A DNA stretch of 31,567 bases from a virus: the IMG/VR virus record IMGVR_UViG_3300032238_001658, positions 1-31,567 of that record, one strand, 5' to 3'. The notes under the pieces are model-generated. The model worked only from the letters and a program-made list of their open reading frames with translations. It was not told the origin of the DNA and did no database searches. Both the position numbers and the translations under genes were made by a program. The number at the start of each line of letters is the position of its first letter. Position 1 is the stretch's first letter. Shown here piece after piece: positions 4,441 to 5,538 of this stretch.

Positions 4441-4710
4441 TTAATCAACAGGCAACATTTCTGGATTTTCCAGTTCAAGTTCAAACAACATTGGATGACA
4501 CTCTTCATCAATCAAATAGAATGATGTCCTGTATAAATCCTCTGGTTCAAATCTTCTTTCTGTGTCTGCTAATTTGATTAATTCCAGATCATAAATTGAA
4601 TCATCTGGAAGTTCATCAAAAGTAAAAGGAACTTGATTTATAAAGTACATCAGAACAATTTGTGTTCCCTCATTATACCAACAATACCTGGCATCAATTC
4701 TGTACTTCAT
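4441..4710 (-). CDS. Small acidic unknown protein (89 aa)
   Basis: The protein starts MKYRIDARYCWYNEGTQIVL and is acidic in its second half (ELPDDS, DTERRFEPEDLY, ELELENPEMLPVD). No catalytic motif or membrane segment is visible. It looks like one of the small conserved proteins of early cyanophage regions, but I cannot name the family. Upstream, the ribosome-binding sequence AGGA sits in a 6-bp hairpin (TAGGAA/TTCCTA) that touches the ATG, so initiation may be modulated by local structure. The gene lies between the HNH endonuclease and tRNA-Thr and is followed by the tRNA after two bases, which suggests one transcript. Confidence 0.65.
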   Translation of the reverse strand: MKYRIDARYCWYNEGTQIVLMYFINQVPFTFDELPDDSIYDLELIKLADTERRFEPEDLYRTSFYLIDEECHPMLFELELENPEMLPVD

Positions 4711-4746
4711 AGGAACTTTTCCTACTTTTGTTTATTTAGAGGTTGA

Positions 4747-5211
4747 TTAAGATTTCTTATTTTTACCTCTATATGTTTCTGTCTGCGCGTGGCAGTTTGG
4801 ACATAAGAGACGAAGGTTTTCTAAAGTATTATTGTATCGGTTTCCGTCAATGTGGTCAAGTTCTATTGGCGTAATTTTACCATTCCACTCAGTAATACCG
4901 CAACATTCACACTTGTATTGCTTTAGTCCTTCATTAATCAGACGTTTTTTTAAGTTATTTGATTGAACCAACCTATTTTCAACAAGATAAGTTTCAATAG
5001 GTTGTCTTTTAGGTAATTTTTTACCTTTACTCCACGCCTGTCCGTGAAAGTGTGTAGTGCTTAAATTAAGTTTTTTAATTCTTTCTTTAGCACATTGATA
5101 GTTTCCACCTGCTTCTCTCAAATTAAGTTTAGAAAGAACCTGTCGTAAACTTCCACTTTCTTTTACAACTTTTGCAAATTCTTCATCTGTATAATTTCTA
5201 GATTTTGCCAT
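4747..5211 (-). CDS. HNH homing endonuclease, free-standing, next to intron-bearing tRNA-Leu
   Basis: The C-terminal third is a clear HNH nuclease with zinc ribbon: CECCG near residue 99, then the motif ELDHIDGNRYNNTLENLRLL and CPNCH. The N-terminal part (residues 1-60, MAKSRNYTDEEFAKVVKESG...) is a helical DNA-recognition region ending in basic sequence (KGKKLPKRQ). Length 154 aa fits free-standing phage HNH enzymes. I place the start at ATG 5211; a TTG 12 bases earlier is in frame but lies inside a hairpin stem. The gene begins 46 bases downstream of tRNA-Leu on the same strand. Its start codon touches one arm of a 14-bp inverted repeat whose loop holds a late promoter. By analogy with the psbA-associated F-CphI of cyanophage, it may cut intronless tRNA-Leu genes; the target is not shown by the sequence. 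Confidence 0.88.
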   Translation of the reverse strand: MAKSRNYTDEEFAKVVKESGSLRQVLSKLNLREAGGNYQCAKERIKKLNLSTTHFHGQAWSKGKKLPKRQPIETYLVENRLVQSNNLKKRLINEGLKQYKCECCGITEWNGKITPIELDHIDGNRYNNTLENLRLLCPNCHAQTETYRGKNKKS

Positions 5212-5256
5212 AACGGTAAACAATAACTATAATTATTTATAAATTGTTTACCGTTA
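5211..5256 (-). repeat. 14-bp perfect inverted repeat enclosing a late promoter
   Basis: Arms 5211-5224 and 5243-5256 are perfect reverse complements (TAACGGTAAACAAT / ATTGTTTACCGTTA) with an 18-base spacer. The minus-strand spacer contains TATAAATA. The 3' arm ends on the A of the HNH start codon. RNA reading through from tRNA-Leu would form the hairpin, while RNA started at the late promoter would lack the 5' arm. Confidence 0.85.
5234..5241 (-). promoter_or_regulatory. Late promoter TATAAATA in hairpin loop (HNH gene)
   Basis: A perfect T4-type late motif on the minus strand, inside the loop of the inverted repeat. With T4 spacing, transcription would begin near 5228, about 17 bases before the HNH ATG, leaving out the 5' arm of the repeat. 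Confidence 0.65.
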
Positions 5257-5257
5257 A

Positions 5258-5538
5258 TGCGAGTAGGGAGACTTGAACTCCCACGGGCAATGCCCAACAG
5301 ATTTTCGTACCACTATAGTTTTCACTACCCTTTCGGTTTGTGGTCTGGACTATACCTTCACCATACCTTTCAGTTTAGGTGTTCCCCGTCTAGTCTCTAC
5401 ACCTTCATCTTACGATGCTTGGCTCGGTATTGCCATTTTAAAGGTTTCACCGAATTTGAGGAATTACACTCATAAGATTTCTCAAATGAGGCTCAATTTT
5501 CATAAGTCTGGTGTGTCTACCGATTCCACCATACTCGC
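5258..5538 (-). tRNA. tRNA-Leu (UAA) interrupted by a group I intron
   Basis: The exons are 5504-5538 (35 nt) and 5258-5305 (48 nt); joined they give an 83-nt class II tRNA. The acceptor stem is 7/7 (GCGAGTA/TACTCGC), the long variable arm is GGGC-ATT-GCCC, and the T stem and loop are GGGAG-TTCAAGT-CTCCC. The anticodon loop CTTAAAA gives UAA. The only irregularity is a C-U mismatch at the top of the anticodon stem (27-43). CCA is not encoded. The intron lies between anticodon U34 and A35, the position known for cyanobacterial and plastid tRNA-Leu(UAA). The mature tRNA would read UUA and UUG leucine codons. It follows a small gene and a terminator hairpin (5541-5564) and precedes an HNH endonuclease gene. 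Confidence 0.93.
5306..5503 (-). other. Group I intron (IC3-like) in tRNA-Leu, 198 nt
   Basis: The intron ends in G, and its internal guide GAG pairs with exon CUU, giving the obligatory U-G pair at the 5' splice site (P1, loop AUGAAAAUU). P2 is CUCAU/AUGAG. P4 is UUCGGU/ACCGAG followed by the conserved GCCAAGC. A minimal hairpin CAUC-GUAA-GAUG takes the place of the long variable region of the Anabaena intron. The guanosine-binding P7 core contains AGACUAGACGGG. The 3' part has AGUCC and two GAAA-capped hairpins (P9 region), and an outer CCAC/GUGG stem. No ORF is encoded in the intron. It is shorter than the 249-nt Anabaena homologue but core elements appear intact, so self-splicing is likely though untested. 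Confidence 0.9.

Follow-up and report, generated by a model that had tools for sequence, protein, structure and literature searches.

A probable homing endonuclease of the tRNA-Leu(UAA) gene in viruses and bacteria, with a group I intron as its optional companion

In collaborative homing, as defined in the account of PMC3984707, the target of the endonuclease is the intron site. By its logic, though not by its protein, the closest known system to the locus described here is F-CphI/psbA of cyanophage S-PM2, which, in the description given in PMC6083498, likewise joins a group I intron to an adjacent free-standing endonuclease gene in a cyanophage. F-CphI is of the Endo VII type and has a protein-gene target, whereas the enzyme studied here is an HNH protein with cysteine pairs and the host gene is a tRNA; in the same description the psbA intron blocks self-cleavage, while most relatives of our HNH family are intronless (PMC6083498). 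T4 SegB, as presented in PMC2988022, resembles our enzyme in being free-standing in a tRNA region, but it is a GIY-YIG enzyme whose listed target is a tRNA intergenic region, with no intron. I-HmuI and I-PfoP3I are HNH nucleases as well, but belong to protein-gene introns, whereas the family studied here is mostly free-standing and located at tRNA genes; I-HmuI (1u3e) was returned by Foldseek with a non-significant E value of 2.7. In mycobacteria, HNH genes have been reported from horizontally acquired tRNA clusters, and the portions of PMC6582537 that treat them do not make a link to tRNA-Leu(UAA) or its intron. Our search of the literature found no description linking this HNH family to that tRNA or to the intron.

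The window (the whole stretch of DNA analysed, 31,567 nt) carries on its minus strand a split tRNA-Leu(UAA) gene at 5258-5538, whose exons are found contiguous, with few substitutions, in the intronless sibling locus L323. In the splice model read from the sequence, a 5' exon (5538-5504, 35 nt, ending in CTT) and a 3' exon (5305-5258, 48 nt) flank a 198-nt group I intron (5503-5306, minus strand) inserted after U34 of the anticodon. The intron was recognised by an Rfam match (Intron_gpI, RF00028, at 5513-5324, 67.9 bits, E 2e-15 in the window) and by alignment with 17 related introns; it has a group I core, interrupts the anticodon and ends in G, and splicing yields the anticodon loop CTTAAAA with the anticodon UAA. 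The insertion site is the one common to cyanobacterial and plastid tRNA-Leu(UAA) introns, which are among the oldest known introns and mostly have no reading frame. Likewise, no ORF of at least 60 aa was found wholly within the window intron. The split tRNA was missed by ARAGORN in its default run and, with introns allowed, was given a different splice placement and the name Tyr(ata), so that its assignment as Leu(UAA) is based on the splice model together with relatives for which ARAGORN does give Leu(taa); at all loci other than the window, split tRNAs and anticodons are ARAGORN calls. Outside tRNA-Leu(UAA), the best cyanobacterial match to the intron (L518, 81% over query positions 45-168) has a tRNA-Met as its host gene according to ARAGORN, and the same conserved core occurs in other tRNA genes and apparently also in protein genes of five further records (L208, L220, L209, L217 and H6 HTVC120P), once in a gene annotated as capsid protein.

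Downstream of the tRNA, an intact ORF running from ATG 5211 to the stop codon at 4747 (4747-5211, minus strand) encodes a protein of 154 aa, the proposed tRNA-Leu(UAA) homing endonuclease. It matches the Pfam families HNH (3e-5) and HNH_3 (1e-5) as well as phrog_10822 (E 1e-52), and the His, Asn and Cys residues of the motif are conserved in the family, with the cysteines paired. A structure model (mean pLDDT 88, pTM 0.56) gave no match at E 0.001 or better in a Foldseek search of the PDB. The first-pass annotation, which had described an intron-split tRNA-Leu on the strand of the HNH gene, an intron free of ORFs and an HNH start 46 bases beyond the tRNA, was borne out on each count: by Rfam and the splice model, with both genes on the minus strand; at the 60-aa threshold for frames wholly inside; and exactly, the tRNA ending at 5258. 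An ORF-less intron in a tRNA gene and an adjacent free-standing endonuclease gene, two of the features of a collaborative pair, are thus both present.

The HNH gene constitutes an insert that separates the 3' end of the tRNA from a gene of 89 aa (4441-4710, minus strand; phrog_4134, function unassigned). At the end of the insert begins a downstream flank (4711-4746, minus strand) with a CTAAATA promoter-like box of the neighbour gene, and this flank is identical in the HNH-less L323 from CAACCTCTAAATAAAC on. With its near-identical exons and the same downstream sequence, L323 represents an empty site for both intron and HNH gene. The tail tube protein of the window virus matched 120 phage records, whose names are without exception those of Synechococcus, Prochlorococcus or marine viruses, and a baseplate protein is closest to that of S-SM2; judged by these proteins, the virus is related to T4-like cyanophages. 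In L384, L385 and L398, other sequence fills the slot that separates tRNA-Leu from the 89-aa gene, the L384 ORF presumably resembling a 2OG-Fe(II) oxygenase by its motif, and in L388 a split tRNA-Leu is followed by a different HNH gene, which suggests turnover of homing genes at the site. Turnover of homing endonuclease genes has been proposed in PMC10448857 as an alternative source of such layouts, and the different HNH gene in L388 fits this idea.

We then asked where relatives of the HNH gene reside. A protein scan of viral contigs gave the 80 closest relatives, of which 79 could be evaluated (L064 starts inside the gene), and tRNA-Leu(UAA) adjoined or surrounded the HNH gene in all 79. The gene lies 3' of an intronless tRNA-Leu(UAA) in 58 of these and 3' of an intron-split one in 18; single loci show it divergent from an intronless tRNA-Leu(UAA) (L079), 5' of a split one (L078) and inside the intron (L080). 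An intact intronless tRNA-Leu(UAA) therefore stands beside the gene in 59 of the 79, including that of the closest relative (L002, 89%). Even on contigs rich in tRNAs (L071 with 18, L054 with 20) the gene is found at Leu(UAA). A search of the phages collection matched 241 records (60 listed), and in each of 15 hand-picked for close reading a tRNA, in one case a tmRNA call, lies within 200 nt of the HNH gene; nine are at tRNA-Leu (anticodons TAA, TAG and CAA), and the others at Gln (twice), Glu, Asn, Phe and the tmRNA call. Wider relatives are found beside tRNAs for Gln, Glu, Asn, Asp and Phe as well as beside a tmRNA call, so the family has addresses other than tRNA-Leu(UAA). Divergent members 3' of tRNA-Gln or tRNA-Asp (L110, L244, L117 and L196) suggest subfamilies with other tRNA addresses. 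In many cyanophage-like contigs (L003, L004, L006, L020, L034 and others) the tRNA with the UAA anticodon differs from normal bacterial tRNA-Leu in that its variable arm is short (73-77 nt).

In viral records, HNH genes inside the intron were found on the opposite strand (L080, L205 and L216) and on the same strand (L212, L280 and L082, the last a 595-kb phage), and in L251 the gene occupies the 5' part of the intron. What looks like a fragment of the HNH C-terminus directly follows the split tRNA-Leu of L286, apparently a decayed homing gene.

The association extends to bacteria. Using the family alignment as query, we scanned GTDB with one genome per species and analysed the best 80 matches by similarity. 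In 39 of these best 80, the HNH gene immediately precedes, on its 5' side, an intronless tRNA-Leu(UAA) of the same orientation, and at these 39 loci (among L433-L511) the HNH frame often overlaps the 5' end of the tRNA, by a median of 10 nt, so that the last codons come from the tRNA gene. The HNH gene lies inside a split tRNA in 23 of the best 80 matches, namely tRNA-Leu(UAA) in 21 (18 on the opposite strand) and, in two, a tRNA assigned to Phe(aaa) by ARAGORN, and a further seven place it beside or at a related intron. The remainder of the best 80 comprises five at other tRNA-Leu genes, one at His, one at Gln and four without a nearby tRNA. We also drew genome samples irrespective of tRNAs: in the cyanobacterial phylum 2 of 292 genomes carried the gene, and in the gammaproteobacterial class 4 of 369. 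All six copies are at tRNA-Leu(UAA), five of them inside the intron; one genome per sample had served as seed, which leaves four of the six copies independent. The same kind of intron is known from cyanobacterial tRNA genes (tRNA-Leu(UAA) and tRNA-fMet), and 35 of the 292 genomes match the window intron, whereas of the only two carriers of the HNH family in this sample one has the gene inside a tRNA-Leu intron.

Based on these findings, we propose, with a probability of roughly three in four, that the HNH protein is a free-standing homing endonuclease with the tRNA-Leu(UAA) gene as its target, and that the window intron is an optional companion that can be co-converted with it rather than an obligate partner. 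In a mixed infection, the enzyme would cut or nick the tRNA-Leu(UAA) gene of a virus without the HNH gene, and repair from the carrier would copy the HNH gene with the adjoining tRNA allele, plus the intron if the donor has one. In other lineages, the gene may have moved into the intron, giving rise to a self-contained mobile intron. Because the 5' edge, the 3' edge and intron residence all border the same tRNA, and because the tRNA bodies beside the HNH gene differ strongly except in the anticodon loop, we infer that the target would be the tRNA itself, perhaps its anticodon region. An anticodon target predicts self-cutting by carriers with an intact intronless gene, an objection that must be answered; nicking, allele differences or protection based on the insertion are candidate answers. 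HNH nicking enzymes that tolerate an uninterrupted carrier site do exist, I-PfoP3I being one.

The same enzyme can be accompanied by differing tRNAs and intron states. Between L027 and L034, the HNH protein and its leader are each 100% identical, while the tRNA 3' halves are 60% identical and one of the two loci has an intron. Among 44 HNH pairs at least 90% alike, the tRNA 3' half falls below 75% identity in 15 and the intron state differs in 10; conversely, nine pairs share the tRNA 3' half with HNH less than 70% identical. This decoupling of HNH gene and tRNA halves implies exchange boundaries at the tRNA/HNH junction. In addition, the tRNA of L054 has a body of another kind yet contains an intron resembling that of the window (97.6% over 165 nt). 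Besides the window copy (L001), 89 HNH sequences were compared, 25 of them beside an intron-containing tRNA, and on the tree of all 90 this state requires 11 changes, 10 of which are forced by strong branches. Residence inside the intron requires five changes on the phage HNH tree, where a single clade is rejected (AU test, p=0.00035), and nine, three of them forced by strong branches, when bacteria are included.

To determine whether intron and HNH gene travel together, we sampled the window locus through the 89-aa neighbour gene, a query blind to both. This gave 80 loci among the matches listed, one of them without a tRNA-Leu; of the remaining 79, 60 had neither element, 11 the HNH gene without the intron, six the intron without the HNH gene and two both. 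The HNH gene thus behaves as an optional insert, 60 of the 79 loci among the matches listed being intronless and HNH-free. It was present in 2 of 8 intron-containing and 11 of 71 intronless loci among the matches listed (Fisher p=0.61), counts from loci that are not independent of one another; after clustering at 97%, p was 1.0. An obligate intron-HNH pair at the window locus is ruled out by this sample. The first-pass annotation had suggested a collaborative pair and had named frequent independent occurrence in close relatives as what would speak against it; by that measure the strict pair is refuted for the window lineage. Other parts of the suggestion stood: the link of the enzyme family with tRNA-Leu(UAA) was borne out, and enzyme gene and intron have been joined many times, including with the former inside the latter.

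The independence of intron and HNH gene at the locus would also be expected if the tRNA-Leu(UAA) locus were simply where the enzyme homes, with the intron an unrelated resident, neither helping nor moved. This explanation is further favoured by a set collected with the intron pattern, in which the intron occurs without the HNH gene at 20 of the 34 split tRNA-Leu(taa) loci whose flank was long enough, among the matches listed. In a scan with the tRNA pattern, covering at least 120 loci, the HNH gene was present at one of four intron-containing loci, carriers being too few for a statistical comparison. We nevertheless consider an entirely unrelated intron unlikely: the HNH gene is found repeatedly inside the intron, one clade of the enzyme is always accompanied by it (see below), a window-like intron has reached a different tRNA body in L054, and HNH pairs keep the enzyme while changing the intron state.

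At the other extreme, strict collaborative homing would have the enzyme cut only intronless tRNA-Leu(UAA) genes, with the intron protecting the carrier and both spreading as a unit. The HNH genes inside the intron speak for it, and so does a divergent HNH clade, clade B, whose enzyme has 237 aa with an extra C-terminal domain. A scan by protein only found 12 clade B loci at 82% identity or more, and all 12 have an intron, the one in L408 being divergent and recognised over its 3' half. These loci have four kinds of tRNA body; three of them are identical, and by our reading of the identity list nine are distinct. Some HNH clades, then, behave as collaborative pairs. Within the tRNA body type of the window, HNH carriers have the intron in 7 of 7 unique loci compared with 5 of 15 HNH-free ones at the same locus, a difference (p=0.005, or 0.034 with clustered loci) that was found post hoc and is a hint only. 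The pooled table of bodies, from which repeated flanks and HNH-free loci with a 3' flank shorter than 250 nt were left out, contains one exception, L140, with a weak HNH match (89.6 bits). A typing of split-tRNA bodies as I or II was discarded as unreliable, exon lengths being fixed. As a general account, strict collaborative homing is nonetheless improbable. Intact intronless tRNA-Leu(UAA) genes accompany the enzyme in 59 of 79 viral and in 39 of the best 80 bacterial relatives, which makes the intron dispensable as a shield, a role consistent with the data in clade B only; an association is absent from the locus sample (p=0.61 among the matches listed), and the closest relative, L002 (89%), is intronless.

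Alternatively, tRNA arrays could be hot spots for any homing gene, with adjacency to tRNA-Leu(UAA) reflecting shared cargo instead of targeting. That a different HNH gene (L388) and an unrelated ORF (L384) take the same slot agrees with this, as does the position of T4 SegB within a tRNA cluster (PMC2988022). The explanation is nevertheless very doubtful, given that the gene keeps to Leu(UAA) among the 18 tRNAs of L071 and the 20 of L054, that the bacterial copies among the best 80 matches are at this one tRNA gene and that close HNH relatives are rare beside other tRNAs. A function on RNA, or in helping the intron to splice, instead of in DNA homing might be suggested by the bacterial copies within introns but is scarcely credible in view of the intronless majority of carriers and the conserved HNH motif with its paired cysteines.

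The preferred reading, a homing endonuclease of the tRNA-Leu(UAA) gene, is accompanied by a candidate mode of expression. The 46-nt leader between tRNA and HNH gene (5212-5257, minus strand) is predicted to form a hairpin whose 3' arm abuts the HNH start codon and within which lies a T4-type late promoter -10 box (TATAAATA). We folded 70 of 72 leaders (L001 and L117 omitted): TAAATA is present in 66 of the 70 and enclosed by at least five pairs in 63. The median z was -3.5 against mononucleotide shuffles, with values below -2 in 49 of 70 leaders and weak folds (z of -2 or above) in the other 21. Among unique leaders, 45 of 59 reached a stem score of at least 7, compared with 26% of shuffles, and the stems show compensatory pair exchanges at the same positions, for example G-C to A-T. 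The box alone is weak evidence, since of 18 promoter-like boxes in the window only 6 have one of its 24 ORFs starting within 80 nt downstream. Inspecting the leader by eye, we saw no operator-like target copy of the kind known from I-TevI.

For T4 I-TevI, I-TevII, I-TevIII, segB and mobE, PMC2988022 describes a hairpin on the early RNA with a late promoter within it; the HNH gene of the window shares with segB, mobE and I-TevI the late promoter and the hairpin over the start codon, here as read from sequence. The best reading is that the HNH gene would be under T4-type late control. On early read-through RNA the hairpin would block translation of HNH, and transcription from the late promoter within it would yield a translatable late RNA, as for T4 I-TevI, segB and mobE.

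How ORF-less tRNA-Leu(UAA) introns pass between lineages is an old question, for which this small HNH clade supplies a concrete candidate enzyme, and the HNH gene of the window a candidate vehicle for the intron. In phages, as in bacteria of many phyla, these HNH genes are tied to a single tRNA gene, and in several lineages they lie within its intron. We speculate, tentatively and at rather less than even odds, that one HNH family supplies the mobility enzyme long missing for the tRNA-Leu(UAA) group I intron, in bacteria as in their viruses, with a target in the anticodon region, a free-standing gene on either side of the tRNA or within the intron, and cyanophages carrying it between cyanobacterial and viral tRNA genes. 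If this were true, enzyme alone, intron alone, the two side by side and enzyme within intron in either orientation would form a natural series for endonuclease capture, supplying natural intermediates for the proposed path by which an ORF-less intron and a free-standing endonuclease become a mobile intron. On one of the contigs with the HNH gene inside the tRNA-Leu intron, we also noted a sub-threshold match to GOLLD RNA (L212:6719-7203, 81 bits; gathering threshold 150).
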